IMG/VR virus record: IMGVR_UViG_3300026114_000004 | Location: 1-42,233 of that record | Strand: one strand, 5' to 3' | Length of the DNA: 42,233 nt | From: a virus | Part shown: positions 2,846 through 40,874 of the stretch, one piece after another | How the letters are laid out: each line of letters starts with the position of its first letter | Position numbering within the stretch: position 1 is the stretch's first letter | Made by a program: the position numbers and the translations under genes | Notes under the pieces: generated by a model | The model's input: only the letters and a program-made list of their open reading frames with translations | Database searches by the model: none | What the model was told of the DNA's origin: nothing

Positions 2846-4096
2846 TTATATTTTACTAAACATCTGGTTTTCTTGTTTTAAAAGATAAACTACTTTGCCA
2901 AATTTAGGGTGTTTATCAGTATACACATTTTGTTTATCAAATTCATCTTGATTCCAAGTCCCCCAATTCCACATTTTTTGCCATTCGATATGTTTGATTC
3001 CTAATTCATTGCACAATTTAACAAAATCGGGAATTTCTTCATAGTTTGCTAACTGTACTACATAATCAGCAGATATTTTTGTTTCTGCTGATGTTTTATC
3101 AATTAAATCTTTAATCCATATCACGTTTTCGATTAATGTTTCCCAGTTTCCGTTGACTCGAGTTTTCGCATAGGTTTCGGGAGTTGCAGCATCAAAACTG
3201 ATACGCATTTCTGATATATTTGGGAGTAATTTTGTTATCAAATCTGATTTCTTTTTTAAAAAACTTCCATTTGTTTGTATAATGTTTTTGATATTAGGTT
3301 TATTTTTATTTGCAATATGCTCCATTATATCTAGGTATGGCTGTGAAATAAACGGTTCTCCACCACACCAGCGTATGTTTATGGGTTGGTCTTCTATACG
3401 ATCAATTATATTATATTTTATATAGTCGGCAATTTTATCATTTATTGGTCGTATAACATGATGTTTGTTAGTATTAATAACTTCTGTTCGACAACTAGGA
3501 CATTTGAAATTGCAAGTATAGTCGAAGTCAAAAATTAAATTTTTTGGTATTTCATTTACTAATAGTTGGTTGGACTCTGGCAATAACAGTGGTTCTTCTT
3601 CTTGCTCACTTTCATATCTGTATTCTGATTTATCAATCTTTGAAAAGAACGAACATATTTTATTATTGCAATATAGATATCTTCCTTCTAGAATTTCATA
3701 CCTAATACTTTGTGCGAGATCACTGTTGAGTATTTCAAAAATATCGTCGTGATCAAAAATATTTCCAACAAATTTTGGAATCCACGATGGACTCGAACAA
3801 ACAAAGACATCACCATTAGAATGTATTCCCAATGTTTCCCACGGAACAGTACAGTGTTGCTTTTTGTATTGTTTATCGAAAAATATCTGTTGCTGTCTTT
3901 GTTTATTATCTTCGGCTAACTGCTCACCATGTTGTACTATTTCTTCATATGACTGAGTCATTATTTGTTTAAAATTTTCGATTTCAGCATTGATTTCTGG
4001 GTCTGCCGCCTTAACGCCATTTATCATATCTTCATAACTAGGCCAATCGGGCCCAGCAAATGCTTTATAATCTTTATAGCCTATAATGTGTTTCAT
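2846..4096 (-). CDS. radical SAM protein with N-terminal SPASM-like region
   Basis: A radical SAM core starts near residue 188. CNFKCPSC (residues 195-202) is the CX3CX2C motif that binds the 4Fe-4S/SAM cluster, followed by a glycine-rich motif (RWCGGEPF) and a strand ending QTNG. In front of the core, about residues 80-150, lies a segment of the kind normally found after it in SPASM proteins: CTVPWETLGIHSNGDVFVC, then GNIFD, with Cys82, Cys100, Cys143 and Cys148 as possible ligands for a second cluster. Total length is 416 aa. The ATG at 4096 shares its A with the stop of the upstream gene (TGATG). The target is unknown; SPASM relatives modify peptides or proteins. Similar proteins occur in marine T4-like phages. 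Confidence 0.85.
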   Translation of the reverse strand: MKHIIGYKDYKAFAGPDWPSYEDMINGVKAADPEINAEIENFKQIMTQSYEEIVQHGEQLAEDNKQRQQQIFFDKQYKKQHCTVPWETLGIHSNGDVFVCSSPSWIPKFVGNIFDHDDIFEILNSDLAQSIRYEILEGRYLYCNNKICSFFSKIDKSEYRYESEQEEEPLLLPESNQLLVNEIPKNLIFDFDYTCNFKCPSCRTEVINTNKHHVIRPINDKIADYIKYNIIDRIEDQPINIRWCGGEPFISQPYLDIMEHIANKNKPNIKNIIQTNGSFLKKKSDLITKLLPNISEMRISFDAATPETYAKTRVNGNWETLIENVIWIKDLIDKTSAETKISADYVVQLANYEEIPDFVKLCNELGIKHIEWQKMWNWGTWNQDEFDKQNVYTDKHPKFGKVVYLLKQENQMFSKI

Positions 4097-4305
4097 CAAG
4101 ATTTGTTTGACTTATACGTCTTTATTACAACAGAATCATTTTTAATTTTTATGGGCATATCTATACATTTTTCAATATCTAAAAGGTATTTGTCTAAAAC
4201 GCCATTGTTAAAATCAGAAATCATAATGTCAGTATGATCCTGAGCAATTTGCTCAGGATCTGAATCGCCCAGTCTGTCGTACAATATGTGGGGACTTCTA
4301 CTCAT
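4096..4305 (-). CDS. hypothetical 69-aa protein coupled to radical SAM gene
   Basis: This acidic small protein (start MSRSPHILYDRLGDSD, end VVIKTYKSNKS) is not recognised. Its stop overlaps the radical SAM start by one base, implying translational coupling. That makes it a candidate partner or substrate of the radical SAM enzyme, although no leader-peptide motif is visible and it could simply be another small phage protein. Confidence 0.6.
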   Translation of the reverse strand: MSRSPHILYDRLGDSDPEQIAQDHTDIMISDFNNGVLDKYLLDIEKCIDMPIKIKNDSVVIKTYKSNKS

Positions 4306-4508: not shown

Positions 4509-4534
4509 CTCCATAGTGCGAGGAGGTATTTACT
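4509..4534 (-). promoter_or_regulatory. late-type promoter with SD-masking hairpin
   Basis: Minus-strand AGTAAATA (4527-4534) is followed by CCTCC (4522-4526), whose CTCC can pair with the GGAG ribosome-binding site at 4509-4512. A transcript starting about 6 nt after the element would lack the pairing arm. The stem is only 4 bp, so this is the weakest of the hairpin loci. Confidence 0.4.
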
Positions 4535-5950: not shown

Positions 5951-5973
5951 AGTCTCCTGTTAGACTATTTAAA
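5951..5973 (-). promoter_or_regulatory. TAAATA promoter-like element with SD hairpin
   Basis: Minus-strand TTTAAATA (5966-5973) is followed by a stem AGTCT/AGACT (5962-5966 with 5951-5955) that encloses and partly pairs the AGGAG ribosome-binding site of the gene at 5746-5946. The element is a weaker match to TATAAATA than the others. Confidence 0.4.
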
Positions 5974-10684: not shown

Positions 10685-10707
10685 TTTGCCTCCAGCAAAT
10701 ATTTATC
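10685..10707 (-). promoter_or_regulatory. late-type promoter with SD hairpin
   Basis: Minus-strand GATAAATA (10700-10707) is followed at once by TTTGC (10695-10699), which pairs perfectly with GCAAA (10685-10689) around a loop holding GGAGG. A start 6 nt after the element would remove the 5' arm from the transcript. Confidence 0.6.
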
Positions 10708-13095: not shown

Positions 13096-13566
13096 TTATT
13101 CAGCCAATCTTCGTGTTTCTTCTTCTGCGGCGGCAAGTTCTGCTTCAGAGACCACACCTTCTGCTAATAATTTTTTTCTATTGGCTAGGTGTTGGGCATC
13201 GATATCGTCTTTAGAACCACCGTGATATGCAACAGCATAACCTTCTTCAATTAATATTTCGGTCAACAGTTTGTCTCCAATTTTGAAATCACCCAAAACT
13301 CGCCCAAACTTGCCTCGCATATCTTCGCCTTCTTTGTTCAAACGAGTGCAAAGAACAACATCACCTTCTAGCAATTCTTTTACGCGTTTGCCCGCAAGTT
13401 TGCCAAATAGTTTTTCTACTCTGTCCAGCGTTCTTGATTCTGGTGTATCAATCCCCATTATGCGTACTCTTTCATCACGCAGTATAATATCAAATCCTAA
13501 ATCAATATCAACATCAACAGTATCACCATCGACAACATTAATTACCTGTGCCCGGTATTCGTACAT
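13096..13566 (-). CDS. thermonuclease (staphylococcal nuclease family)
   Basis: This Ca-dependent nuclease of the SNase/TNase fold would cut DNA or RNA. The catalytic set is present: VVDGDTV (Asp13, Asp15), VRIMGIDTPES (Arg35, Asp40, Thr41, Glu43) and KFGRVLGDF (Arg89). There is no signal peptide, so it acts inside the host cell or is released by lysis. Length 156 aa is standard. The C-terminal Glu/Ala-rich helix (about 138-156) is an addition. Its start codon and SD sit in a hairpin directly downstream of a TAAATA promoter (13564-13600), pointing to late, gated expression. That would suit a nuclease harmful to early phage DNA. Confidence 0.9.
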   Translation of the reverse strand: MYEYRAQVINVVDGDTVDVDIDLGFDIILRDERVRIMGIDTPESRTLDRVEKLFGKLAGKRVKELLEGDVVLCTRLNKEGEDMRGKFGRVLGDFKIGDKLLTEILIEEGYAVAYHGGSKDDIDAQHLANRKKLLAEGVVSEAELAAAEEETRRLAE

Positions 13567-13600
13567 GATAGCTCCTTGTTTTAACTATCATGTATTTACT
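13564..13600 (-). promoter_or_regulatory. late-type promoter with start-codon hairpin
   Basis: Minus-strand AGTAAATA (13593-13600) is followed by CATGATAG (13585-13592), which pairs perfectly with CTATCATG (13564-13571). The second arm contains the nuclease ATG, and the loop holds AAGGAG. A transcript starting 6 nt after the element loses most of the first arm. Confidence 0.7.
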
Positions 13601-15973: not shown

Positions 15974-17257
15974 TTATTTCCAAAATTTCTCAATCTCACC
16001 TGCCATGATAGTACCATAAGGTAGTACTTCATCTACTACCGTTGCAAGATCAAAGTGCTCAATATCACGACGCACTGCTGCCGCATCCTTGTATGCACTT
16101 GGCAACTCACTGGTGTCAGGCATGCCACTCCAGAATCGAATGTCCAGTCCTTCGGTTTCTCGTTCAAGGTCGGCAATGCCACGACGAGCATGCTCTGACC
16201 GTGAGTAGTTTCGACCTGCACCGTGCGGGCAGAATCCCAGCGAGTTTGGATTGTCATGACCTCGAACAATCAGGACAGGTTCTGCCATATTGAGTGGAAT
16301 TGCCTCGACACCATCGCTCCATGCTGGGGTTGCACCTTTTGCATGATAGATCACGCCATCCCGCTCGAACACAAAATTGTGTCGAGTCCATGTCAACATT
16401 TCCGACTCTTCGCCATGGATTGCATAGTGGTTCTCCATCGTCCACTCTTGAACAATGTTCAATGCTTCCATGTAGGTATAAAAATCGTTGGTGTCACGAG
16501 GAATCCATGCGTTCTGCTTCAGTGTGTCCGGAGATAACTTCTGGCGATACCTCTCAGCAATTCGCATACCAGCCTTATACACACGAGCACCAAAACCACG
16601 CGAACCATGATGAGTGACCAGAGTAGTTGCACCGCTTGACTTTAGTGTACCCACAAAGGCAAAGTGATTACCATCTCCTTGTGTGCCCATATGATAGTCT
16701 GCAATGTCCTCGAACTGACGAGTGATGGGATTTTCACGAACACGCTCTCGAAGTGCATCACTCATCTTGTATTCAGGACGACCGCCCGGACCAAAGTGGG
16801 TGCGTGAATATACTCGTTCCATCAACTCTACAGGAGTTACATTATCATATGTCGAAACCATGACCGAACAACACACGTCCGCTGAGTGCATACCCGGATG
16901 AACATGTGGTGAAGCAACGACACCACCGACAGGAATTGTGCCAACTGGACCTGCAGGACAGGCATCTGGCATCACTGCAACACTCTCAACAACCGGAGTC
17001 TTTGATAACTCAAACATGGTATTAATCACGGAATCAAGATTGTCTACTTCATCTGGGGTAGATGCACGAATATTAAGACAATGCGGATACCTATTAAAAG
17101 CAATAGGTGATTTCAAGCCCATCTTTGGCTCAGGGAGAAGATCCTTCATTGATTCGTAAGTACAAATTCCGGTCTCGTTTGCCCGAGCAATCATTGCTGG
17201 GATATGTAGTCCACCTTCAATACCAAGTGCAATGATGTCTTTGCCAGTATAAGTCAT
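15974..17257 (-). CDS. rtcB: RtcB-type RNA ligase
   Basis: RtcB joins 2',3'-cyclic-phosphate or 3'-phosphate RNA ends to 5'-OH ends using GTP and Mn; it repairs cleaved tRNAs. The family motifs are in order: the MPDACPAG start of the metal region with HSADVCCSVM (metal-binding Asp and Cys), GDGNHFAFV and HHGSRGFGARV (metal His), RHNFVF (HN), HAKGATPAW, and CPHGAGRNYSR with the guanylylated His. 427 aa from the ATG at 17257 (SD AAGAGA). Plausibly it counters host anticodon nucleases or heals phage tRNAs. The gene is visibly GC-richer than its neighbours, suggesting separate acquisition. A sigma70-like promoter precedes it. Confidence 0.93.
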   Translation of the reverse strand: MTYTGKDIIALGIEGGLHIPAMIARANETGICTYESMKDLLPEPKMGLKSPIAFNRYPHCLNIRASTPDEVDNLDSVINTMFELSKTPVVESVAVMPDACPAGPVGTIPVGGVVASPHVHPGMHSADVCCSVMVSTYDNVTPVELMERVYSRTHFGPGGRPEYKMSDALRERVRENPITRQFEDIADYHMGTQGDGNHFAFVGTLKSSGATTLVTHHGSRGFGARVYKAGMRIAERYRQKLSPDTLKQNAWIPRDTNDFYTYMEALNIVQEWTMENHYAIHGEESEMLTWTRHNFVFERDGVIYHAKGATPAWSDGVEAIPLNMAEPVLIVRGHDNPNSLGFCPHGAGRNYSRSEHARRGIADLERETEGLDIRFWSGMPDTSELPSAYKDAAAVRRDIEHFDLATVVDEVLPYGTIMAGEIEKFWK

Positions 17258-17285
17258 GTGTTTTCTCTTTTGCAATTGTGATACT

Positions 17286-22052: not shown

Positions 22053-22286
22053 TTAGGCGTTAGATTCTTTAAAACATTCAAATCCAGATTGGTGTTCAAA
22101 TGTAAGTAAATCAAATCTTTCTGAACGTGGGTTTCTGCAATATCCATAATCATTGTCTACGCGATCAAACCAGATACAACCGCAACTACAATCTGGATAA
22201 TCTAAGTCTTTATTTTCCCAGCGGACAATATTGCCACCATATCCAGAATAATCTGTAGGTTTTGGTTCCGTGTTGACATCATTCAC
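22053..22286 (-). CDS. small Cys-rich protein, 77 aa
   Basis: The cysteines in DCSCGCIWFDRV, then GYCRNPRSE and GFECFKES suggest one zinc-binding fold of the kind seen in phage and bacterial proteins with a CxC/GC...C motif. It overlaps the upstream gene by 8 nt. The function is unknown. Confidence 0.55.
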   Translation of the reverse strand: MNDVNTEPKPTDYSGYGGNIVRWENKDLDYPDCSCGCIWFDRVDNDYGYCRNPRSERFDLLTFEHQSGFECFKESNA

Positions 22287-23208: not shown

Positions 23209-23826
23209 TTATGCAGGACCGGAACTCAAAACTTTTTTTGCAATCGTTTTTTCAATGCCGGGATTAATGTGCTTTACATGCGGAACACATACATGCCTGA
23301 CATAATTTCTGGTATATCGCATTTCACTGTTGCTGGAATCTTCAACATATGGCACATAATGCCGCTCAGCCCACTGTCTAAAAACACGCTTGGGCGTAAG
23401 ACGAAATGGACGAATAACTGTGTTGCGACGATTCCACGGAATAATTTTTGGAGTGCCGTGCATTGCTGACCAAATCCAAGTCTCAATGCAATCATCAAGA
23501 TGGTGACAGGTGACAACTGGCAATTCCATTGATTCTGAAATGCTATCAATAATACGATAGCGTTCATTACGCCAATGTTCTTCTGGACTTTTATCATCAG
23601 GCCGGTCTGGACTGTCAATGCGTCTGACAATAACCTCAATGTCATTTTTCTGACAGTAATTGACCACACAATCTTGCATTGCAGTTGCTTGAACAGTGCT
23701 GTGATTGACATAGAGTGCAACAACTTCATGCTTTCGCTGCAAGAAGTCTAACGCACTCATTGAATCAACGCCGCCAGAACAGGCGAGGATGAATTTGTGT
23801 GGCAGTCGGCCTTGAAGTTTAATCAT
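23209..23826 (-). CDS. tilS: tRNA(Ile)-lysidine synthase-like (TilS N-terminal type)
   Basis: TilS converts C34 of tRNA-Ile(CAU) to lysidine, so the tRNA reads AUA and is charged with isoleucine. The PP-loop SGGVDS (residues 17-22) binds ATP. HHLDDCIETW (108-117), VIRPFRL, and the DSSN....YTRNYVR segment (163-177) are the characteristic TilS motifs. At 205 aa it has only the catalytic domain and lacks the C-terminal tRNA-binding domains of E. coli TilS. The partner is probably the phage tRNA(CAU) at 40797-40874, which resembles tRNA-Ile2. Other PP-loop tRNA enzymes (such as TtcA) are less likely because of the DSSN...RN motif. A sigma70-like promoter lies 36 nt upstream. Confidence 0.87.
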   Translation of the reverse strand: MIKLQGRLPHKFILACSGGVDSMSALDFLQRKHEVVALYVNHSTVQATAMQDCVVNYCQKNDIEVIVRRIDSPDRPDDKSPEEHWRNERYRIIDSISESMELPVVTCHHLDDCIETWIWSAMHGTPKIIPWNRRNTVIRPFRLTPKRVFRQWAERHYVPYVEDSSNSEMRYTRNYVRHVCVPHVKHINPGIEKTIAKKVLSSGPA

Positions 23827-23861: not shown

Positions 23862-23890
23862 AGGCTACATCATGTAAAACAGAATGTCAA
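23862..23890 (-). promoter_or_regulatory. sigma70-like promoter
   Basis: Minus-strand TTGACA (23885-23890), 17-bp spacer, TAGCCT (23862-23867), upstream of the TilS-like gene. Confidence 0.6.
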
Positions 23891-24228
23891 GCGGTTTCTT
23901 TTGTTCCGTTATCGCTGATAATTTTTTCTAAGGTAAGATAAGGTATGCGTTCATTTGGTACATATCTCCAGTAGTGTTTTACATCAACACTGTCTGGTTC
24001 TGTTTTATACATACCAAAAACGGTTGTGGTTGTTCCAATTCTAATAATAACAGCGGGGGTGCCGTCTAAAATAACTTGGTCACCTTCATTGAAATTTTTA
24101 TCAAGTTTGAAAGCAAGTCCTTTTGCCATTTTGGTTGCTAAATCTTTAAACCAAAGGGTCAGTACCAAAATAAAAAGACCTGTAAGGTAGGGTGCTATAA
24201 ATTGTTCTAGTTGTGTAGTATCAGGCAT
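23887..24228 (-). CDS. minimal MscS-like membrane protein
   Basis: This 113-aa protein has one membrane span (residues 12-25, then a basic helix) followed by FNEGDQVILDGTPAVIIRIG, then TTTVFG. That is the pattern of the MscS channel beta-domain (F..GD.V..G..G.V..I...TT). It lacks the pore helix pair and the C-terminal cytoplasmic cage of MscS. It could assemble into a reduced channel or interfere with host mechanosensitive channels. Its start codon lies in a hairpin downstream of a TAAATA promoter. Confidence 0.65.
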   Translation of the reverse strand: MPDTTQLEQFIAPYLTGLFILVLTLWFKDLATKMAKGLAFKLDKNFNEGDQVILDGTPAVIIRIGTTTTVFGMYKTEPDSVDVKHYWRYVPNERIPYLTLEKIISDNGTKETA

Positions 24229-24253
24229 AGTTTGCTCCTATGCCTTATTTATT
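24224..24253 (-). promoter_or_regulatory. late-type promoter with start-codon hairpin
   Basis: Minus-strand AATAAATA (24246-24253) is followed by GGCATAG (24238-24244), pairing perfectly with CTATGCC (24224-24230), which contains the MscS-like ATG. The SD (GGAG) straddles the loop. Starting 6 nt after the element trims the first arm to its last bases. Confidence 0.7.
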
Positions 24254-24265
24254 TGATATCAGATA

Positions 24266-26008
24266 TTAACTGCTTTCACCAAACAATTCTTCAATCTCTT
24301 CTTGCAGTTTCTCTTTGGCTGCGGCTTCATTATAAGCATATACATTGTCAATGCTTATAGTTGGATCTGAAATACTGGTAACGGTATCTAGTATGTCACC
24401 CCAGTCACCAAGTTCAGAAACATTTGCAATGTATTCGCCAGCACCGGCAGTCAGCATAAAATCTAACATAAGTTCAATAGATAATCTAAGTTGATATTTT
24501 TCTGAACCTTCTGTTTGTACGAAACCATTTTCTTCTAACCACTCACCTAAGTACTTTTCTGCTTTCGCAGTTGTGCCAGAATATATTCCATCAAACAAAG
24601 CACTCATAAACATACGACGAACATCCAATGATTCTTCTATCATATCTTCAAAACTGTCAATATCAACTGTTTCACCGGCATCTTCTTTTGCATATTTTTT
24701 GATTTTTTCTTGAACATCCCCGCCTAACTCGTCGTATAACTCTTTTGCATAGCCATCTTCGCCGAGTGTGCCATCAACCATATTGCTTATGTTTTCATAA
24801 GTGTCTGAATCTTCAAAAATATCTATAAGGTCTGAAACTGTTCTATCAACCGAAAATTGATTACTAATTTCGATTAAGTCAGAAAATTCATTAATAACGA
24901 TATATGAATCTTCCCCATCTTTAACTATATCTTCATAATCTAGTTCAGAACTACGCAGTTGAGATTCAAACGCATCTATGACTTCCTCACTCATTCCCTG
25001 TTTTCCAAAAATCGTAGATAACCCGCCCAATGCAGGTTTTGCATCTATTAATTTTTCGGCAACATCATCGTCTAAATCTTCCATCTCAAAGTTATTTTCA
25101 GGCAAATAACCACCACCTTTGATGCCTTTTACAAAATCTTTTTGTAGTAAGTCAATAATGTAGGGGTGGTATTTTTCACTAGGCTTGTCATTACCACGCC
25201 CTTTCATTTCTCCCAAATACCCGCTTTGATCCAAAATAAAGGTAAGGTGTGGCTTTTGTTTTGTTTCGCCGATTTTTGACCGGAAACTCAATATACGGTC
25301 TCCGCCCAATGGGTCACCCATGTTACCACAATGGCCCATTGCTTTGCCTTCTATCTCACAATATTCTCGGTCAAGTTTCACCCAAGCGTATTTGCCGTAA
25401 TCAATGATAATCTTGTCATCTGGTTCTGGTTCAATTTCTTCTGCTTGTTTTTGTTTCCATTCTTTTTCTGCTTGTTCTAATCGTCTAAAAAGTTCGGTTG
25501 GGCTAAGATTCGCCTCCCATTCTACCGCATTAACTTGTGGCGATTGTTCAAACATAGTAGACCAGTGGTTTCCCAAAGCCAGCACGTTAAACACATTTTG
25601 AAACTCACTGAATACGCTGGGCTGATTGACGTAATAATCAAAATCTTTTTTGGTTATTTTTTTGTAAAGATTTTCTAACTGTTGAACTCGTTGTTGGAGT
25701 TCTTCTGCTGATTGTGGTGCATCTGGACCAGCATCCCTACCAGATTGTACAAACTCCCACTGATTTTGTAGTTCTTGTATTTTTGCATCAATAACTTGAC
25801 CAGTTTCTTTTATTCTCCACCATCGTAGCCACCAGATTATACGATCTGCTCTTTTGAGAGTAGATTTAACCTCTTTCAATAAATCGTTAGCCCGTTCTTG
25901 ACTAATAATATCAGCATTAACCATGGCATCCATGATTTGTTTATACTGCTGCTTGTTCTCAAACAGATGTGGCTTTATTATAAATTTGGAAAATTCTTGA
26001 AATCTCAT
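24266..26008 (-). CDS. large phage protein with PcfJ-like motif
   Basis: This 580-aa acidic protein starts MRFQEFSKFI. The central EGKAMGHCGN motif (about 220-229) with following ILSFRSKI and PHLTFILD segments and PSEKYHPYIIDLL belongs to a large hypothetical family common in marine T4-like phages. The GHCG part resembles the PcfJ core motif. It has coiled-coil-like stretches near residues 40-120 and 170-195. The function is unknown; a virion or head-associated role is possible by size, but unproven. A TAAATA promoter would start the RNA 2 nt before the ATG. Confidence 0.7.
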   Translation of the reverse strand: MRFQEFSKFIIKPHLFENKQQYKQIMDAMVNADIISQERANDLLKEVKSTLKRADRIIWWLRWWRIKETGQVIDAKIQELQNQWEFVQSGRDAGPDAPQSAEELQQRVQQLENLYKKITKKDFDYYVNQPSVFSEFQNVFNVLALGNHWSTMFEQSPQVNAVEWEANLSPTELFRRLEQAEKEWKQKQAEEIEPEPDDKIIIDYGKYAWVKLDREYCEIEGKAMGHCGNMGDPLGGDRILSFRSKIGETKQKPHLTFILDQSGYLGEMKGRGNDKPSEKYHPYIIDLLQKDFVKGIKGGGYLPENNFEMEDLDDDVAEKLIDAKPALGGLSTIFGKQGMSEEVIDAFESQLRSSELDYEDIVKDGEDSYIVINEFSDLIEISNQFSVDRTVSDLIDIFEDSDTYENISNMVDGTLGEDGYAKELYDELGGDVQEKIKKYAKEDAGETVDIDSFEDMIEESLDVRRMFMSALFDGIYSGTTAKAEKYLGEWLEENGFVQTEGSEKYQLRLSIELMLDFMLTAGAGEYIANVSELGDWGDILDTVTSISDPTISIDNVYAYNEAAAKEKLQEEIEELFGESS

Positions 26009-26009
26009 T

Positions 26010-26023
26010 ATGGTGTATTTATT
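26010..26023 (-). promoter_or_regulatory. late-type promoter giving a near-leaderless mRNA
   Basis: Minus-strand AATAAATA (26016-26023) is followed by CACCA and then TAATG. Transcription starting 6 nt after the element would leave two bases before the ATG at 26008. There is no SD. Confidence 0.55.
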
Positions 26024-26045
26024 TTTTAATCGTCTATATTTTTTA

Positions 26046-26059
26046 ATTAAATATGTGGA
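26046..26059 (+). promoter_or_regulatory. late-type promoter giving a leaderless mRNA
   Basis: Plus-strand ATTAAATA (26046-26053) is followed by TGTGG and then the ATG at 26059, so the predicted start is the A of the start codon itself. No SD is visible. Confidence 0.5.
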
Positions 26060-27132
26060 TGGGTAAAACATTAAAAACAGTAGAAAGCCACACTCAATGG
26101 CAAGAATTACAAGAAGTGTGGGTGGGCGGTGTATATCCAGATAAATTTTTTGAACATTTTGATAATAAAACAGAAGATATATTTTGTTATATAAACGAAT
26201 TATCCAGAAATGATTTTTCTAGATTAGGTAAAAAATTTAAAGAATTAGGCGTTAATCCAATTTTTCCCGAATTTACTAATGTAGATGATTACATGGATGA
26301 AAAAGACAGATTAATCAAACCCCCTGTCACCCCTTGTGATTTTTCTTTAACCATAGGTGATACACTATATGTTCTTCCACAATATCCAAGCGGTATAGAA
26401 CCATACCAACATGCAATTGATGAATATAAAAACTCCAATCAAAATGTTGTAATACTTGATAGAGCAACTCCAGACCCATTGGCATATGTTGAATTTCCTA
26501 GCGTTGTAAGAGCAGGGCGTGATATTTTTATAGATTACGATCCCTTCGATGAAAACAGAAAAAAATATAACTTAGAATTTGCACATATTATGTCAAAAAA
26601 TTATAGGGTACATTTGAGCACAACCGGAGATCATAGTGACGGTGTTTTTTGCCCATTAAAACCCGGAGAAATTTTGAGCAGTCACTACCAAGACACGTAT
26701 AAACAAAGTTTTCCGGGATGGAATGTGTTTTTCCTTTATGACAAAACAGAAAATAATAAAAAAAATTTAAATGTATTATCTGGCAGCACGCTAAGTAAAT
26801 GGTGGTTGCCCGATGCTGACTATGCACACTTCAACCCTAGTATTACAAAAGTTGCCAATCAATGGCTTGGTGCACCAGAAGAAACGATATATGATGTCAA
26901 TAATCTTATTATTAATGAAAATAATATTATTACTAGTAATTGTGACGATGAAACATATAAGTATTTTGAAAGTATCGGAATGACCCCGCACATTGTCAAT
27001 TTGAAAACTAAAATGTTTTATGATGCCGGAATTCACTGCTTTACCAGCGACATTTATAGAAAAGGCACATCTGAAGATTATTGGCCGGATAGAGGCGAAA
27101 ATGGCATTTATGAGATAACAGAATGGATTTAA
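26059..27132 (+). CDS. amidinotransferase family protein (copy 1)
   Basis: This enzyme is related to arginine:glycine amidinotransferase (AGAT), which moves an amidino group from arginine to an amine. The chain aligns with human AGAT: PCDF (Asp94, where AGAT has PRD), VVRAGRDIFIDYD (Asp155), DHSDGVF (His192) and AGIHCFTSDIYRKG (Cys327, the covalent nucleophile). 357 aa from the ATG at 26059. It shares the fold of arginine deiminases, but the segments follow AGAT rather than ADI. The acceptor is not readable from sequence. It is translated with the next two genes (10-nt and ATGA overlaps), which have CBM-like and PLP-transferase-like features. Confidence 0.8.
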   Translation: MGKTLKTVESHTQWQELQEVWVGGVYPDKFFEHFDNKTEDIFCYINELSRNDFSRLGKKFKELGVNPIFPEFTNVDDYMDEKDRLIKPPVTPCDFSLTIGDTLYVLPQYPSGIEPYQHAIDEYKNSNQNVVILDRATPDPLAYVEFPSVVRAGRDIFIDYDPFDENRKKYNLEFAHIMSKNYRVHLSTTGDHSDGVFCPLKPGEILSSHYQDTYKQSFPGWNVFFLYDKTENNKKNLNVLSGSTLSKWWLPDADYAHFNPSITKVANQWLGAPEETIYDVNNLIINENNIITSNCDDETYKYFESIGMTPHIVNLKTKMFYDAGIHCFTSDIYRKGTSEDYWPDRGENGIYEITEWI

Positions 27133-29400: not shown

Positions 29401-29428
29401 ATTTTTTAAACTTTTAATAACCGGTGAT

Positions 29429-29442
29429 AATTAATATTTATA
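29429..29442 (-). promoter_or_regulatory. late promoter TATAAATA
   Basis: A perfect minus-strand TATAAATA (29435-29442) lies 35 nt before the ATG of the DUF6614-like gene, with predicted start near 29429. It overlaps the plus-strand start region of the second amidinotransferase gene. Confidence 0.65.
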
Positions 29443-30701
29443 TGAATAATTCAAGCAACGAATACAATATTTGGAACAAATGGGACAAGTTGAAAACAGT
29501 TATGTTGGGTGATTGTTATTCACCTGACTTTTTTTGTGACATCAAAAATAAAAAAATAAAATCAGCACTACAGAAAATATCTGAAGAGACCAGAGAAGAC
29601 TTAGAATATTTTGAATCGGTGTTAAAAGATTTTGGTTGTGAAGTTCTAAGGCCAAATCTAGACAACAATGATAGTATTATGAATTATATAAATTCTGACG
29701 GAAGCATTAACGGTCAGCAAGGTGTTCCACGATCTCCGTTACAACCACGAGATTGCCAATTAGTAATAGGAAATAATTTATTTTATACCAGCAATGACCA
29801 CCCATCAATAAAAGAAAAACTAGATTCATACTGTAAAATTTTTGATTGTATTGAGCAACCAGCTATAACAGAAAAAGTTTTCAATGGCTACAAAGGAAAA
29901 GACGCACCTGCTTGGCCGTCATATGAAAATTATTGTTATAACCAATATTATAATATTCCAATAAGTGATAACCAAGATATTATTCGTGAGTTTTTAGAAA
30001 TACACGAAATAGAAAAAAAATCTGGAGTTCCAGATTTTTATACTTCAGCACCATGTATCACTGTAGTAGGGAAAGACATCTACATAGATGGTATTGATAT
30101 GAAAGATGATCGTAAAATTATAGAAACTATTAATTTTGAAGCTTTTAAAAATTTTGAAAAAAAATATTCTGATTTCAGAATCAATACTCTCAATATAGGT
30201 GGCCACAGTGACGGTTCTTTTCACACTGTGAAAGAAGGAGCAATATTATCTTTGAATGAAATACAAACCTATCAGAATACTTTTCCGGGATGGGATGTGT
30301 GTTACTTACCGGATCAAAGTTGGAGTAAAGTTTCAGAATTTTTAAAAATAAAAAATAAAGTTTCTGGAAAATGGTGGGTTCCGGGTCAAGAAAATAACGA
30401 CGAATTTACACACTTTGTTGAGTCATGGTTACAAGATTGGGTAGGATATGTTGAAGAAACCGTATTTGATGTTAATGTTTTGGTTTTAGACGAAAAGCAT
30501 GTATGCGTCAACAACATGAACCCAACAGTTATTAAATTTTTAAAGAAACATGGAATGGAGCCGGTGCATATACCATGGAGACACCGTTATTTTTGGGATG
30601 GCGGTCTCCATTGCATAACTTTGGATTTGTATAGAGAAGGACACCAAAAAGATTATTTCCCTGAAAGAGGAAACACTCCAATTAGTGATGAAGGATTCTA
30701 A
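29442..30701 (+). CDS. amidinotransferase family protein (copy 2)
   Basis: Like copy 1 at 26059 but longer (419 aa). It has LQPRDCQLVI (Asp104, the PRD of AGAT), VVGKDIYIDG (Asp212), GGHSDGSF (His255) and WDGGLHCITLDLYREG (nucleophile Cys391). Between the PRD block and the second Asp it carries about 60 extra residues (FNGYKGKDAPAWPSYENYCY) absent in copy 1. The two proteins are clearly related but diverged, so probably they use different acceptors rather than being recent duplicates. The ATG at 29442 is preferred over an in-frame GTG at 29424. Its stop overlaps that of the opposing gene as CTAA. Confidence 0.8.
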   Translation: MNNSSNEYNIWNKWDKLKTVMLGDCYSPDFFCDIKNKKIKSALQKISEETREDLEYFESVLKDFGCEVLRPNLDNNDSIMNYINSDGSINGQQGVPRSPLQPRDCQLVIGNNLFYTSNDHPSIKEKLDSYCKIFDCIEQPAITEKVFNGYKGKDAPAWPSYENYCYNQYYNIPISDNQDIIREFLEIHEIEKKSGVPDFYTSAPCITVVGKDIYIDGIDMKDDRKIIETINFEAFKNFEKKYSDFRINTLNIGGHSDGSFHTVKEGAILSLNEIQTYQNTFPGWDVCYLPDQSWSKVSEFLKIKNKVSGKWWVPGQENNDEFTHFVESWLQDWVGYVEETVFDVNVLVLDEKHVCVNNMNPTVIKFLKKHGMEPVHIPWRHRYFWDGGLHCITLDLYREGHQKDYFPERGNTPISDEGF

Positions 30702-32052: not shown

Positions 32053-32291
32053 GTGCAATGGATCAGTTAGAAGAAGTAATGACTTCAGAAAAACGTTGGG
32101 CAAGAGAAAGAGCCGAAGTTGCCAAGGCTATTCACCAGCAATATAGAAAAGGCAACTTGTCTGATTCTGAGTACAAAGAATTACTAGAAGATATTATTAG
32201 AACAGACCGACTGGATCAAGATGCTGACGATGTTGAATTACGCAGCAACTTGGTATCAGGTATTAATGGTCTTCTTAAAGTAATCGGCTAA
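32049..32291 (+). CDS. small helical protein, 80 aa
   Basis: This is a charged helical protein (MSAMDQLEEVMTSEKRWARE start, ending GINGLLKVIG), overlapping the lipoprotein gene by ATGA. I recall similar proteins beside phage lipoproteins. Its stop overlaps that of the opposing EF-hand gene as CTAA. The function is unknown. Confidence 0.6.
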   Translation: MSAMDQLEEVMTSEKRWARERAEVAKAIHQQYRKGNLSDSEYKELLEDIIRTDRLDQDADDVELRSNLVSGINGLLKVIG

Positions 32292-32617
32292 CTGGACTTC
32301 CTACCAACGTAGGCTTCTTTTCCATAGAATGCTGCAACAATAGCGGCAACTGATACGAAATATGTTGGTGCCATGTCACCTAAAATTCCCGCTGCCTTGT
32401 CTAATCCCAAAAGATTAGCAACTACTACAGCAAAGGGATACAGGAGCATTCCGCTCAAACTAAACCAAGCCATTTTTCGCTGAGCATCAGACTTTTCGTC
32501 TTCATTTTCTAGTTCAATTAGTTTTTCATAATGAACTAATTCTTGTTCTGTAATTTTGCCGTCTTTGTCCATATCAGCAAACTGTTGAAAAGCATTTTTA
32601 TAAGATTGTTTTGGCAA
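32288..32617 (-). CDS. EF-hand membrane protein, TTG start
   Basis: A single EF-hand calcium loop (DMDKDGKITEQEL, about residues 15-27) is followed by an acidic helix and two membrane segments (about 50-70 and 80-100). I know this from marine T4-like phages; its role is unknown, and a holin or calcium-sensing lysis factor is possible. The TTG at 32617 is chosen because AAAGGAG is 7 nt upstream; an ATG at 32656 would put the late promoter and its hairpin inside the coding region. Preceded by the TAAATA/hairpin locus at 32618-32647. Confidence 0.7.
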   Translation of the reverse strand: MPKQSYKNAFQQFADMDKDGKITEQELVHYEKLIELENEDEKSDAQRKMAWFSLSGMLLYPFAVVVANLLGLDKAAGILGDMAPTYFVSVAAIVAAFYGKEAYVGRKSS

Positions 32618-32647
32618 CTTAAATCTCCTTTGATTTAAGTATTTATT
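32618..32647 (-). promoter_or_regulatory. late-type promoter with SD hairpin
   Basis: Minus-strand AATAAATA (32640-32647) is followed by CTTAAAT (32633-32639), pairing perfectly with ATTTAAG (32618-32624) directly before the TTG start. The loop carries AAAGGAG. Starting 6 nt after the element leaves only the last arm bases. Confidence 0.7.
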
Positions 32648-32675
32648 TTTTACCACAATTTTACAAACAGCAAGT

Positions 32676-33617
32676 TCAAAATATGATCTTATTGACTTTG
32701 GATTCTATATATGCTTCTTCAATAACTGACATTTCTGGAAATTTTTTTAATGCATTTTTAATATACAGATTTATTAAAGCATCGCAATTATTTTTTGCAT
32801 TTATATAGGGTTGCCTCAATAAAAACTCTTTGTGGAGTTTTTTGATTTTGTTTATGTCTTCATAATTTACAGCATAGTCTGCCCATTTAGCAATAGCATA
32901 AATTTGTTTGAGGAATTTCTTAGTGTCATAAAATTCAATATATGGAAAGACAAAAACCTTAAATTCAGAGGGGTAACCCATGTTTTCTTGACGTTCCATA
33001 AATCCAAATTCTGACGGATTGGAAAATCCAATCCTGAAAAATTCGCGAAGAATATGTCGAGGGCAATTTGAGTTTTTTTCATCAAATTGCAGTATTTCTA
33101 AATTATGATATTCTAAACATTCTTCGCGAATATGTTCTGGTAAATTTAAAAAATCATCATGAGTAAAGACTTCAGGCCAACTTTCATCTTTAACAGCATT
33201 ATACCCATCTTTGATGTTATTTTCAAAAAAACCTGACTTTAAATTATCCAACATTGATCGATAATTTATGTTATTAAATTTGTTGAATGTGTCGTGTTCA
33301 AGATCTTTGGGATTTATATTATAATCCCCAGCCCTCAAAAGACTTGTTAACGCCAATGGTAATAAATCATTTTCTGTAATTTGAATGCTAATGACCGCAT
33401 TGGCTGATATTGTTTCCAAAATGCCGGGGTGTTCACAATAATGATCACAGTAGAATTTTCGTTCGTCAAGATACTGCTTGTCGTGTGCTGCCCCAAAATT
33501 ATTAAACGGTGCCTCATTAAGTGTATCAATTTTTGCTAGAAATTTATTACATATAAATTCTAAGTAATTCCCATGTGCTCCGCCTTGAAAATCAATATAT
33601 ATATTGTTATTAATCAT
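32676..33617 (-). CDS. marine phage conserved protein, 313 aa, P-loop sulfotransferase-like
   Basis: The start IYIDFQGGAHGNYLEFICNK is a conserved block I know from marine T4-like phages; the GG.HGN turn resembles the glycine-rich PAPS/phosphate loop of sulfotransferase-type P-loop folds, but no second phosphate motif is clear. The C-terminal half is helical. The function is unknown. It sits 23 nt downstream of the TctB-like gene stop. Confidence 0.55.
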   Translation of the reverse strand: MINNNIYIDFQGGAHGNYLEFICNKFLAKIDTLNEAPFNNFGAAHDKQYLDERKFYCDHYCEHPGILETISANAVISIQITENDLLPLALTSLLRAGDYNINPKDLEHDTFNKFNNINYRSMLDNLKSGFFENNIKDGYNAVKDESWPEVFTHDDFLNLPEHIREECLEYHNLEILQFDEKNSNCPRHILREFFRIGFSNPSEFGFMERQENMGYPSEFKVFVFPYIEFYDTKKFLKQIYAIAKWADYAVNYEDINKIKKLHKEFLLRQPYINAKNNCDALINLYIKNALKKFPEMSVIEEAYIESKVNKIIF

Positions 33618-33640
33618 TTTACCAATACTCTTTAGATTCT

Positions 33641-33997
33641 CTACCCAAAAATGTTTCCAAAAATAAAGTAATCGACGATAAATGTAATCTCAGCACCAAT
33701 GAAAACTGCCAGCCAATAATTATTTATTATATTCCAGATTTGTTTAATTAACCACCATGCTGCTATTACCCGTGAGACATACAAAATATTTACAATTGCC
33801 AAATCTATAGATGATACGGATAGCGAATTTTGAAAGTAGTTGTCAAATACAAAATAATCAAACACAAAACTTAACTGTGCCATAACGAAAACGGCAGCAT
33901 AATATGGCAGATACTTTAATAAAAAACGAACTAGCGGCCCGGAGACCGCTAGTCTATAACTAACATAAATTATGTTAGTGATTACCAATTCATTCAT
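33641..33997 (-). CDS. small membrane protein, TctB-like position, internally duplicated
   Basis: This 118-aa protein has four membrane segments made of two similar 49-residue halves that align without gaps: NIIYVS...LSFVFDYFVF.NYF and NILYVS...ITFIVDYFIF.NIF. The duplication implies a two-helix repeat unit inserted twice, possibly with inverted or pseudo-symmetric topology. Its ATG overlaps the tctC stop (ATGAATGA), so it is translated with TctC and sits where TctB, the small membrane subunit, is expected. I see no clear TctB sequence motif, so the assignment rests on position and topology. A terminator-like hairpin lies within its first 25 codons. Confidence 0.6.
   Translation of the reverse strand: MNELVITNIIYVSYRLAVSGPLVRFLLKYLPYYAAVFVMAQLSFVFDYFVFDNYFQNSLSVSSIDLAIVNILYVSRVIAAWWLIKQIWNIINNYWLAVFIGAEITFIVDYFIFGNIFG
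33921..33953 (-). terminator. terminator-like hairpin inside the TctB-like gene
   Basis: ACTAGCGG (33930-33937) pairs with CCGCTAGT (33946-33953), and on the minus strand the stem is followed by TCG and six T. It sits about 45-75 nt inside the 118-aa coding region, so untranslated mRNA would be expected to terminate here while coupled translation may let RNA polymerase through. Confidence 0.5.
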
Positions 33998-35051
33998 CGA
34001 CTAATTCTGGTTTATAAACGCTATCAAGTCCAAGTGCTTGTTGATTCACAGTCACAAGAGTCTGTAGGCTATCTTCTGTAATAAATGTCTTGAGTGTTTT
34101 AAAATGGTTTTCACCATCTTCTCCAATAATCCACTCATAATCACCTACTTTATCTCGTATTACTGACATACTTTCTTCGCTATTAGCAACTCGCCGGAGA
34201 GCATCCTGCAAGACTTTTGCATTAGGATTATCTTCTGACACCCAAATTGCTTTTTGAAGTCCGTCTCTAAAACTTTTCACAAGTTTATAAGCATTATAAA
34301 AATCACCGCTAGGTACTTCGCCCCAACGTTTTTCGTATAGCGTTTCAAGTTGCATTCCGGGAAAGTTTGGGTCGTCGTTGTGTGAGCCATCTGATTGTAG
34401 TATACCATGATGAAACCAAACTTCTGCATCACCTGAATTAATTAAAGGTTCTACATGCTTTTTGAACGCCGCGGGGTTTTCTCGGGTGCCATTTAGTTCT
34501 CCGCGTCGAAATGCCAATCTTCTTTCACCACCTGACATCCCAGCCACCCATGTTACAGTATCTTTGAAACAATCAATATATGCTGCAGTATTTTCTTGGG
34601 GTCCGCAGTTAAGCAGTGTCATTGCAAATGCCTCTGGAACCATACCGCTACCAGCAGAAAATCGTGGGTTAGACATATCATCCCCTGCAGTTTTTCCCGC
34701 AATAATATTCAAATTCATTAAGCCAATGCTGGTGTAGTCTGAATAATCATAGTCAACTTCTTCTTGGAGAAAACTTACACCATTGCCGCCATGAGAAACC
34801 ATCGCGGTTTTATCATCATTTTGGAGTTCGTTATGAAACTCATTGAATCCTGCTATGTCTCTCGCACCCGGAATATTCCGAATCACAATATCTTCATCAA
34901 GATATTTTTCCATTTCTATAGCAACAATTTCTGCCCACACACTTGTACCGCCACCGGGCTTTTGTGGCACAACAAATGTATATTCAGCCTGTGCTACTGA
35001 AAACACACTACCTGCCAGTAGTGCTAACAATAGTTTTTTTGATTTTGTCAT
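33990..35051 (-). CDS. tctC: TTT solute-binding protein (TctC family)
   Basis: This is the periplasmic receptor of a tripartite tricarboxylate transporter. A clear signal peptide (LLLALLAGSVFSVAQA, cleavage after Ala22) precedes TFVVPQKPGGGTSVWAEIVA, the TctC start with the substrate-binding loop. 353 aa is slightly longer than typical members (about 320). The TctC fold binds carboxylates through two water-bridged helices; the ligand may be citrate-like but cannot be read here. SD AAAGGAG. It is downstream of tctA by 12 nt and overlaps the TctB-like gene. Confidence 0.88.
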   Translation of the reverse strand: MTKSKKLLLALLAGSVFSVAQAEYTFVVPQKPGGGTSVWAEIVAIEMEKYLDEDIVIRNIPGARDIAGFNEFHNELQNDDKTAMVSHGGNGVSFLQEEVDYDYSDYTSIGLMNLNIIAGKTAGDDMSNPRFSAGSGMVPEAFAMTLLNCGPQENTAAYIDCFKDTVTWVAGMSGGERRLAFRRGELNGTRENPAAFKKHVEPLINSGDAEVWFHHGILQSDGSHNDDPNFPGMQLETLYEKRWGEVPSGDFYNAYKLVKSFRDGLQKAIWVSEDNPNAKVLQDALRRVANSEESMSVIRDKVGDYEWIIGEDGENHFKTLKTFITEDSLQTLVTVNQQALGLDSVYKPELVDE

Positions 35052-35063
35052 TTTATTTCTCCT

Positions 35064-36509
35064 TTATGCATAATCAATAGAATTTCTTTTGAATAAGAAA
35101 TATAATATCACAATTACAGAAACTCCTATCAAAGATAAAAATAGTGGTCTCTGTAATAACTGCTCAAATGAGTATAATGTAGTCATTTGAAGTGAAAGAC
35201 TTTCGATTCTGTCCGCTAAAATATATCCAATTAGTAGAGCAGGTCTGCTAAAACGAAACTTTTTGCATATGATTCCCAAGACAGAAAATATTGCTAGTAT
35301 AGCGTAATCTTCCCATCCCCCAGTGTATTGAACACAGGCCCAAACAATAAAAAGCAACAATATAGGAAAATAGTACGCATAATTAACTTGGGCTGCTTTT
35401 GCTATTGCTGGAGTTAGTGGCAGACAGATAAGAGCAACTAGAACAGTTGCTGCTAAAAACCCAAATGTCATTGCAGTAAAAAATGTTTCGTCTTCTAAGA
35501 GCATTGGTGTTCCCATTTCTAATCCTAGGTACACAAACAAACTCATTAGTATTGCTGCAAATGGAGCACCGGGAATACCAAATAATACAGTAGGTATCAT
35601 GCTACTTGCTTTCTGGGCGTTATTTGACCCCTCTGGTCCTATCACGCCTTTGATATTACCTGTCCCAAATTTTATTTTTTCATTCGGATTGGTTGCTACG
35701 GTTTGACCATAACTCATCCAATCAGCAACCGCACCACCCAAGCCGGGCAATACACCAACAAAAGCACCAATAAAGCCACCCCGAAGGGCTAACCAGCGAT
35801 TTTTCCAGACTGCTCGAAATCCTTCTTTACTTTGTTGAAAATTGGAGAGTGTTTGCGACATAGCAGCACGGCGACTAAAACCGGCTAGTAGTTCTGGGAT
35901 TGCGAATAATCCGGCAACTAGCGGCATAATTTGTATACCACCACCCAGATAGTCCCATCCCATTGTGAACCTATCAGATGCAGTTACCGGGTCTACACCA
36001 ATTAATCCAAGATACAATCCAGCAGTTAGTGCAATGATGCTTTTTATCCAGTGACGATTAGTCACAAATACAACGGTGACAAACGCCAGTATTGTAAATG
36101 CCCACAACTCGGGCGTTCCAAAAAACATAACCATCTTGCTGTACCATGGCAACAGCAAAAATACCAGTGATCCCCACAAAACGCCATTGATTGTACTAAC
36201 AGCGACAGCAGCAGATATAGCATATGCCGCCCGTCCTTGCTGGGCTAGTGGAAATCCATCTACGACAGTTGCTGCGGCAGAATTTGCTCCCGGTATACCA
36301 AGCAGGACACTAGTGTAAGTATCTCCAGTTGTGCTCGCTGCTACCACTGCCATTAAAAATACGACACCGAGATACGGGTCACCCATGCTTAAGAATATTC
36401 CGACAAATGGATACAATGCCACAAGACCAGTTGTAGCACCAGCTCCGGGTATAATGCCAATTGTTAGACCATAGAAGGTCCCTGCGATTATCGCATAAAA
36501 ATATTCCAT
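35064..36509 (-). CDS. tctA: TTT large membrane subunit (TctA family)
   Basis: This is the 12-helix permease of the tripartite tricarboxylate transporter, driven by ion gradient. Both duplicated family motifs are intact: GIIPGAGATTGLVALYPF near the start (about residues 18-35) and GVLPGLGGAVADWMSYGQ in the middle, then GPEGSNNAQKASSMIPTVLF and GIPGAPFAAILM. Length 481 aa is close to the usual 500. With TctC and a small membrane protein downstream it forms a complete-looking carboxylate uptake system in a phage. Phage particles do not need it, so it would act in the infected cell. It is preceded by a long structured leader. Confidence 0.92.
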   Translation of the reverse strand: MEYFYAIIAGTFYGLTIGIIPGAGATTGLVALYPFVGIFLSMGDPYLGVVFLMAVVAASTTGDTYTSVLLGIPGANSAAATVVDGFPLAQQGRAAYAISAAVAVSTINGVLWGSLVFLLLPWYSKMVMFFGTPELWAFTILAFVTVVFVTNRHWIKSIIALTAGLYLGLIGVDPVTASDRFTMGWDYLGGGIQIMPLVAGLFAIPELLAGFSRRAAMSQTLSNFQQSKEGFRAVWKNRWLALRGGFIGAFVGVLPGLGGAVADWMSYGQTVATNPNEKIKFGTGNIKGVIGPEGSNNAQKASSMIPTVLFGIPGAPFAAILMSLFVYLGLEMGTPMLLEDETFFTAMTFGFLAATVLVALICLPLTPAIAKAAQVNYAYYFPILLLFIVWACVQYTGGWEDYAILAIFSVLGIICKKFRFSRPALLIGYILADRIESLSLQMTTLYSFEQLLQRPLFLSLIGVSVIVILYFLFKRNSIDYA

Positions 36510-36622
36510 ACAACTCGATTAAATTAATATAGTGGGTTACATTTACTGAGTTAGTAAATGTTAAGAGAAGAGACAATTGAACTTCCGTAGAGCGTTAATT
36601 GTCTTTATTGAAATTATTTATA
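36510..36622 (-). promoter_or_regulatory. late promoter and structured tctA leader
   Basis: A perfect minus-strand TATAAATA lies at 36615-36622, giving an untranslated leader of about 100 nt. Within it are an 8-bp stem AGACAATT/AATTGTCT (36571-36578 with 36597-36604; extendable to 11 bp with one bulge) and a 9-bp hairpin ACATTTACT/AGTAAATGT (36539-36547 with 36553-36561) 30 nt before the tctA ATG. The long leader contrasts with the leaderless genes. The first stem could also be the end of the methyltransferase transcript. Confidence 0.55.
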
Positions 36623-36640
36623 AAGTGAAAAAATAATTTA

Positions 36641-37318
36641 TTATTTTTTTCGCCAAACAAAATACATTCTGTTTTTTGAATCATTACGCAAATCTAGTAT
36701 ATCTACGTTCAATTCACGAGCACAATTTATAACAAAATTGCTATCCCAAGGATAAAAACTAATCCATTGAGATTCAGGTGGGGTGTGTTGTAGCCCGGGA
36801 TTAACCCTAAAAAACAGTGTAGCATTACTATGACATAGTCTTACTACATGTTCTAATTCTGAAAATATTTTGCTAGTGCTGCCAAAATTGATGCTACCTA
36901 ATGCCAAGACAACATCAAACTTTTCTTTTGGATGATAATCGGTAATTGAAACGTTGATATCTGCGTTTTTGTTATAAGGGTCTATTCCAATTAAGTTATC
37001 GATTTTCCCCCTAAACTCATTATATCCACAACCAGCATCTAATACACTTGTTGGATTTAATGCATTAACTTCATCTATTAGTGTTAATCCACTATATTTG
37101 AATTTTTTAGTCTCTGGTTGCCAAACCTCACTAAAGTATGCAGATAATACTGCATCATCAATTATATTGACTATCTCTGCAATATTTTTAAGATTATTAA
37201 CCGAAACGTTTACGCCAAATTCATAATTTATAGTCTTTTCTAATAATTCTTTATTACGTAATAAACCGGGGTTATCATGTATAATTGTTTCTAATTTGTA
37301 TAGTATTTTATGGTTCAT
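36641..37318 (-). CDS. SAM-dependent methyltransferase, class I
   Basis: Motif I is VLDAGCGYNEF, then DNLIGIDPYN (acidic end of strand 2), with FDVVLALGSINFG after it and an FFRVNPG block. This pattern is familiar from marine T4-like phages, where the target is not known. A helical N-terminal region of about 80 residues precedes the domain. The ATG at 37318 overlaps the stop of the P-loop protein (ATGA); an upstream TTG is not needed. Target could be a small molecule, sugar or nucleic acid. Confidence 0.75.
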   Translation of the reverse strand: MNHKILYKLETIIHDNPGLLRNKELLEKTINYEFGVNVSVNNLKNIAEIVNIIDDAVLSAYFSEVWQPETKKFKYSGLTLIDEVNALNPTSVLDAGCGYNEFRGKIDNLIGIDPYNKNADINVSITDYHPKEKFDVVLALGSINFGSTSKIFSELEHVVRLCHSNATLFFRVNPGLQHTPPESQWISFYPWDSNFVINCARELNVDILDLRNDSKNRMYFVWRKK

Positions 37319-37893
37319 TCTTGTTTTGCCCAAACAGATAAAAATATATCAGAGAAAATGTGATGTTGTTTCCATAAAAGGCAATTATTTTTTGCAAAAT
37401 CTAAAATTAATTCGTTTTGCTCTCTTATTTTGTTCATCATGATTGAATCGTTGACATACCAACTATAATCTGGATATTTTATATCCCAGCCACCAGCTTC
37501 TTTCCACCAGTTAAAACTACTTTCGTTATTCCGATATATTAAAACAATCCAATCTTTTGGAAATTCTTCTGAAAGATTATCTAATACATAAGCCCACTCG
37601 TGACTCTTATGTACTCTGCATTGGTTAAATAATGTATGTGGTTGTGAATAGGGTGCATCAAGATTATGCTCTGAAAAAACAGCAGGGAATTCCATTCCTG
37701 TTCCAAAATATGCACCAATATGACCAGTAAATTGTTTGTGAGAATATTCTCTTTCTGGTTTTCTATCGGAACAGTCTGCATTGACAAACTCTTCTATTTC
37801 TTGTGCTATTCCACTCCATCTACTTCCCGGAACGCCAGTCAAGAATATTTTTTTAGGTATTTTTTTATTAGGTAGCAAACTTTGTATTTTCAT
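37315..37893 (-). CDS. P-loop / sulfotransferase-like phage protein
   Basis: KKIFLTGVPGSRWSGIAQEI (residues 14-33) is a phosphate-binding loop of the sulfotransferase/nucleotide-kinase type, and WIVLIYRNNESSFNWWKEAG resembles the 3'-phosphate segment (..YR....SFNWW). I know this from marine phages without assigned function. 192 aa from the ATG at 37893; a start at 37935 would overlap the RNase H-like gene. Overlaps the methyltransferase gene. Confidence 0.6.
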   Translation of the reverse strand: MKIQSLLPNKKIPKKIFLTGVPGSRWSGIAQEIEEFVNADCSDRKPEREYSHKQFTGHIGAYFGTGMEFPAVFSEHNLDAPYSQPHTLFNQCRVHKSHEWAYVLDNLSEEFPKDWIVLIYRNNESSFNWWKEAGGWDIKYPDYSWYVNDSIMMNKIREQNELILDFAKNNCLLWKQHHIFSDIFLSVWAKQE

Positions 37894-37901
37894 AATTTTA
37901 T

Positions 37902-40332: not shown

Positions 40333-40409
40333 TGGCCCGCCCGGGAGAACTCGAATCCCCAACCCTCGGAGTAGAAATCCGATGCTCTATCCAGTTGAGC
40401 TACGGGCGG
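40333..40409 (-). tRNA. tRNA-Arg (anticodon UCU), CCA encoded
   Basis: The cloverleaf is complete on the minus strand: acceptor CCGCCCG with CGGGCGG, D-arm GCTC/GAGC, anticodon stem TCGGA/TCCGA with loop TTTCTAC (anticodon UCU), and T-arm GGGGA/TCTCC with TTCGAGT. The 3' CCA is encoded (40333-40335). It reads AGA and AGG, codons expected to be common in this AT-rich phage. Confidence 0.92.
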
Positions 40410-40796: not shown

Positions 40797-40874
40797 TGGT
40801 GGGACCATCTGGACTCGAACCAGAAACCAACAAATTATGAGTTTGCTGCTCTAACCAAATTGAGCTATGGTCCC
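40797..40874 (-). tRNA. tRNA with CAU anticodon, likely tRNA-Ile2 (AUA-reading)
   Basis: Complete cloverleaf: acceptor GGGACCA/TGGTCCC, D-arm GCTC/GAGC, anticodon stem GCAAA/TTTGT with loop CTCATAA, T-arm TCTGG/CCAGA with TTCGAGT, encoded CCA (40797-40799). The anticodon CAU could mean Met, but the G27-U43 pair, the variable region and the T-arm resemble E. coli tRNA-Ile2 more than tRNA-Met. With a TilS-like gene at 23209-23826, lysidine modification to read AUA is likely. The acceptor has only one of the two C-G pairs (4-69, 5-68) associated with TilS recognition, so the assignment is not certain. Confidence 0.8.

Follow-up and report, generated by a model that had tools for sequence, protein, structure and literature searches.

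Upstream of a small gene on the minus strand of an uncultured marine phage, a TAAATA element is followed at once by a perfect hairpin that encloses both the SD and the start codon. Is this the device known from phage T4, in which the choice of promoter decides whether the RNA can be translated, and if so, how many genes of this phage carry it? The DNA analysed, called the window below, is the whole of IMG/VR record IMGVR_UViG_3300026114_000004 (42,233 bases), whose genes lie mostly on the minus strand. The first-pass annotation had proposed a T4-style early/late switch at up to six genes sharing one geometry. The elements and hairpins at all six loci are present where it placed them, all on the minus strand, and three of the genes (sites 24224, 13564 and 32618) very probably carry a promoter-choice translation switch composed of a hairpin and TAAATA, a reading that draws on the observed geometry, non-randomness, compensation, predicted energies and recurrence on nuclease genes. 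For comparison there is the syntenic relative G001, an IMG/VR contig of 194.5 kb. Most of the window can be aligned to it, in blocks whose nucleotide identity ranges from about 68 to 93% and is typically 80-85%. Searches of G001 for capsid, portal and terminase genes of T4 type found none, so that the contig is a fragment or strongly divergent.

The site that raised the question consists of three features.

23887..24228, minus strand, 113-aa small membrane protein gene under the predicted switch, whose product has a hydrophobic helix besides a conserved part rich in beta structure
24246..24251, minus strand, TAAATA, the late-promoter-like element of that gene, kept in G001
24223..24245, minus strand, 8-bp perfect hairpin AGGCATAG/CTATGCCT, flush with TAAATA

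The SD AGGAG (24235-24239) and the ATG (24226-24228) both fall inside the hairpin, with the start codon in its 3' arm. The leader has a fold z-score of -4.0, and with the stretch from element to SD shuffled p is 0.0056. One G-C pair of the stem has become T-A in G001 by a double change, while the loop grew from 7 to 9 nt. The protein found no match in Pfam, PHROG or PDB, and its predicted structure (pLDDT 54) is too poor for searching. In G006, a 244-kb distant relative, and on a sister contig, the homologous genes too are preceded by TAAATA leaders from which a late start would strip masking pairs; the arms differ.

At the second site the gene encodes a nuclease, whose product matches PF00565 (E 3.6e-11, above the curated cut-off) and the endonuclease family phrog_452 (E 3.5e-32).

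13096..13566, minus strand, SNase-family nuclease gene under the predicted switch (PF00565 and phrog_452)
13593..13598, minus strand, TAAATA, the element of this gene, reading TAAGTA in G001
13562..13594, minus strand, 10-bp perfect hairpin TACATGATAG/CTATCATGTA, starting two bases within TAAATA

Here the SD AGGAG (13572-13576) lies in and beside the loop and the ATG (13564-13566) in the 3' arm. The leader's fold z-score is -3.7 and the same shuffle gives p = 0.0002; in G001 the stem shows one double change from G-C to A-T, with a loop of 8 rather than 13 nt.

The third site precedes a gene whose start is most likely the TTG at 32617, not the GTG of the longest open reading frame.

32288..32617, minus strand, 109-aa lysis-cassette gene under the predicted switch, homologues of which adjoin lysis genes
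32640..32645, minus strand, TAAATA element of that gene, kept in G001
32618..32639, minus strand, 8-bp perfect hairpin CTTAAATC/GATTTAAG, flush with TAAATA

The SD AGGAG (32625-32629) occupies the loop and the 3' arm, and the TTG start (32615-32617) follows directly. Fold z-score (-3.1) and shuffle (p = 0.0026) again set the leader apart, and two A-T pairs have become G-C by double changes in G001, where the loop is 7 instead of 6 nt long. The small product has two hydrophobic stretches visible in its sequence. In four isolate genomes the homologues adjoin lysozyme, spanin/endolysin, holin/endolysin and endopeptidase genes, and two T4-like isolates have them next to the tape measure gene. Because of the lysis neighbours, the product probably has a lysis role, perhaps holin-like; no holin profile in PHROG or Pfam matched it, and in CRP-810 a separate annotated holin adjoins the homologue.

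The three remaining loci are of another quality.

10685..10705, minus strand, doubtful site, TAAATA (10700-10705) with a 5-bp stem TTTGC/GCAAA round GGAGG, z +0.6
4509..4532, minus strand, weak site, TAAATA (4527-4532) with a 4-bp stem CTCC/GGAG, shuffle p 0.21
5951..5971, minus strand, weak site, TAAATA (5966-5971) with a 4-5 bp stem AGTCT/AGACT, shuffle p 0.22

At 10685 the SD stands 13 nt from the ATG and the pairing is not kept base for base in G001, and for the 5951 site no counterpart aligned in G001. All three are indistinguishable from chance, so the geometry attributed to up to six genes holds for three, with one doubtful and two weak cases besides. A scan of the window for TAAATA followed by an SD and an open-frame start codon returned only five such leaders: the three with strong stems and the 4-5 bp stems at 4509 and 5951. 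Five of the six sites can be aligned to G001, and four of these keep TAAATA, the nuclease site having TAAGTA.

The annotation had named arms that vary without covariation among related phages as grounds for giving up the idea; the comparison instead spoke for the switch. G001 has all three hairpins, and their 26 base pairs comprise 22 unchanged, four changed on both sides and none broken, the covariation being that of one genome pair, window against G001. Compensatory change would equally keep a DNA palindrome, and the inverted repeats touch the promoter element, so that they might be operators for a dimeric repressor overlapping late promoters, much as T4 I-TevI binds and represses its own late promoter (PMC2988022). 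We consider this very improbable: the three palindromes have neither sequence nor spacer length in common, a spacer can differ by as much as 5 nt from one relative to the other, and all are centred on the region of SD and start codon. Less probable still is that the stems are opposite-strand terminators, or chance products of AT-rich leaders. The plus strand at 24223-24245, followed by TATTTATT, does pass a loose terminator scan, and three of the six reported sites are at chance level; however, minus-strand genes surround the 24-kb stem, and on that strand it precedes coding sequence and no T run follows, and chance is contradicted by the compensatory changes, the shuffles and the arm swaps described next. 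For the three main sites the changes in G001 largely refute this explanation.

When arms from the TAAATA leaders of other T4-like phages were swapped in, 0 of 158 scored as well as any of the three strong sites. Swapping arms between leaders of the window itself gave p = 0.014, a value limited by n = 5 leaders, and in G001 0 of 500 permutations attained the observed count at the strictest threshold. TAAATA is scarce genome-wide yet concentrated upstream of SD and ATG, which supports a promoter role: elements 14-45 nt before the pair number 4 of 27 in the window, 10 of 134 in G001 and 27 of 225 in T4, against mostly 1-4% for permuted motifs. G001 also holds an 8-bp stem, ACACATAG/CTATGTGT, flush with TAAATA at a CsgF-like gene about 46% identical to HTVC008M CsgF (L091:2155-2200; G001 about 22155-22200), a probable fourth switch-bearing gene of the lineage.

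How would such a switch operate? The TATA box of T4 late promoters is 8 bp long, starts near -13 and lies about one turn ahead of the transcription start (PMC2988020). On that spacing, late RNA would start at or near the sixth base past TAAATA, the base used for the late-start RNA in the model. The genes upstream of the switch sites are on the same strand and closely spaced. Read-through RNA from such a gene would hold the whole hairpin, which would hide the SD, the start codon or both, and little protein would be made. A T4-type late RNA polymerase starting at about the sixth base after TAAATA would omit five or more bases from the beginning of the 5' arm, so that the hairpin could not form and the gene would be translated. 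Presumably the delay would keep nuclease, lysis protein or membrane protein from harming the infection by appearing too early. Predicted costs of opening the SD-to-start region at the three strong sites are 11.9-13.2 kcal/mol on read-through RNA and 2.1-4.5 kcal/mol on late-start RNA. In a scan of 5' ends most of the predicted cost is lost over the first four bases 3' of the element; at the main site it is 11.8, 7.3 and 2.6 kcal/mol at offsets of 0, 2 and 4 after the element, and at 32618 upstream bases supply part of the read-through cost.

The hairpins could instead mask initiation and be opened by an RNA-binding protein, a nuclease or temperature, with TAAATA incidental or an AT-rich spacer. 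T4 does have RNA-binding repressors at initiation regions (PMC3014915), and the nuclease leader of G001 reads TAAGTA, not TAAATA. We nevertheless think release of this kind unlikely, since each arm starts at the element and the opening cost is mostly gone within the first 0-4 bases past it. Arm and loop sequences differ from site to site, so that no common protein-binding motif is seen, and masking on nuclease homologues, described below, goes with TAAATA. Promoter choice is preferred. Against it, the late sigma factor gp55 was not found by PHROG profiles or iterative profile in the window, G001, G002 or G003, though all of them are fragments and it is present in G006 (E 3e-59), in a block without counterpart in G001. 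That TAAATA is an active late promoter in the phage of the window is therefore, like the existence of read-through RNA, an inference.

Recurrence on other nuclease genes offers evidence of a second kind. Homologues were gathered from viral contigs, and their leaders were scored and clustered, with cluster means used and, for leaders without TAAATA, a mock start set at a fixed distance. The opening cost drops by at least 4 kcal/mol on late start in 13 of 27 TAAATA leader clusters versus 2 of 41 without the element (Fisher p = 4e-5), and this tie between strong masking and TAAATA argues against release by other means. Exchanging upstream-plus-arm segments between nuclease clusters gave a mean of 5.2 expected, and 0 of 200 permutations reached 13. 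Among the remaining TAAATA leaders of these contigs 7 of 72 lose 4 kcal/mol or more, a comparison for which the Fisher tests use a biased best-member-per-cluster count (12/25). Arms are unrelated among the clusters, whose independence was judged by leader sequence and not from a tree, as the following nuclease leaders illustrate.

L037/L043 group, 12-13 bp stem with TAAATA in its loop
L022 group, TACTC/GAGTA
L338, CTACTAT/ATAGTAG
L332, ATACTGT/ACAGTAT
L296, ACATTG/CAATGT over the start codon
L074, 12-bp stem over the start and the next codons

The cultured cyanophages that were examined, and Melnitz-3, are without the hairpin arrangement at the SNase-type nuclease. We see about an even chance that the switch is a safety catch, re-evolved repeatedly on SNase-type nuclease genes in many marine T4-like phages, that marks genes harmful if expressed early; if so, the SNase-type nuclease has its own late promoter and an independently evolved anti-SD or anti-start arm.

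This recurrence holds for the nuclease and not for the lysis-gene family, since among 11 distinct TAAATA leaders of homologues of 32288-32617 only that of L179 drops by at least 4 kcal/mol. Upstream of another lysis-gene homologue, on L141 (about 5 kb), TAAATA precedes a tandem pair of perfect hairpins, CTAGGA/TCCTAG and GTATCT/AGATAC, which leave the SD unmasked. The expectation that TAAATA-hairpin pairs would exceed controls across related phages was borne out in the window and G001, whereas most other T4-like phages have no excess. The genome-wide arm swap gave no significance in HTVC008M, Melnitz-3 and G004-G008, a masking-score test over T4-like genomes gave mixed results, a pooled strict-stem test gave a weak signal, and non-SNase TAAATA leaders on the nuclease contigs were not in excess at a threshold of 6 kcal/mol (2/72 versus 11/315). 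The device is therefore gene- and lineage-specific and no rule of late promoters. In sum, the T4-style early/late switch is well supported at three sites, by compensation, energy collapse, recovery of the T4 cases and nuclease recurrence, and is not supported for six genes.

Several other features of the window deserve record. Rfam matched tRNAs only, and there are two tRNA genes (40336-40409 and 40800-40874). A radical SAM/SPASM protein is encoded at 2846-4099, an RtcB-like RNA ligase at 15974-17275 and a TilS-like PP-loop protein at 23209-23826. The segment 26011-31717, with a GC content of only about 31-32%, plus-strand genes and reversed skew, is unaligned to G001 although the flanks on both sides align, and is, judging from this alignment, a lineage-specific insertion; two open reading frames in it, 26053-27132 and 29424-30701, resemble each other and have no Pfam match. 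A phage-borne tripartite tricarboxylate transporter is encoded at 33641-36509, with TctA at 35064-36509 (Pfam E 7e-99) adjoined by a TctC-like and a small membrane open reading frame; 32647-37897 is without counterpart in G001. Window gene 24266-26071 is matched twice in tandem in the distant relative G003 (L004:10000-12657), which is likely a duplication.

The mechanism is already known, with experimental precedent, as the hairpin/late-promoter switch of T4 (PMC3014915, PMC2988022); the genes, the lineage and the recurrence on one nuclease family appear new. The same scoring applied to T4 recovers its known cases: the highest-ranked leaders, which we take by position and length to be those of I-TevII, e, segB, I-TevI and 26, figure in reviews of the device (PMC3014915, PMC2988022). 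Reported carriers are e, soc, 49, I-TevI and segB, together with mobE of phage Aeh1 (PMC3014915, PMC2988022), which makes the T4 cases more numerous than the few genes the annotation had allowed. At T4 e, and likewise soc and 49, a late promoter stands immediately upstream, late RNA is without the 5' strand of the helix that masks SD and AUG on the longer early RNAs, and the product is dangerous if made early (PMC3014915), features that the sites described here would share. The genes of the window are different ones, in a distant marine lineage, and are known from sequence alone. The T4 e arm, as we read it, begins inside the element (AATACCT/AGGTATT), whereas window arms are flush and form 8-10 bp perfect stems.

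The closest likeness is at the nuclease. T4 I-TevI, I-TevII and segB and Aeh1 mobE are nucleases in early or middle units that a hairpin keeps masked until transcription starts at a late promoter (PMC2988022), and the window nuclease is arranged like these homing-endonuclease hairpins; its enzyme, however, has the SNase fold (PF00565), where theirs are GIY-YIG or HNH. The cyanophage group T4-GC228 includes PF00565 proteins and was only suggested to shuffle genes (PMC3037559). In the literature, which was partially covered, no paper was found that describes such a switch on a phage SNase gene. Like the gp55-dependent late promoter of T4 (TATAAATA) and that of cyanophage S-PM2 (NATAAATA), the window elements have the TAAATA core, and their position agrees with transcription beginning about one helical turn further on (PMC2988020, PMC2984593); the bases before the core vary (GTAAATA, ATAAATA), and gp55 is found only in the relative G006, not in the fragments of the lineage itself. 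A device hitherto described for few genes of enterobacterial phages would thus extend to uncultured marine phages, for which sequence may predict the genes held back until late infection, such as nucleases, lysis proteins and pore-like proteins, and comparative evidence, in the form of compensation and recurrence with unrelated arms, takes the place of single examples.
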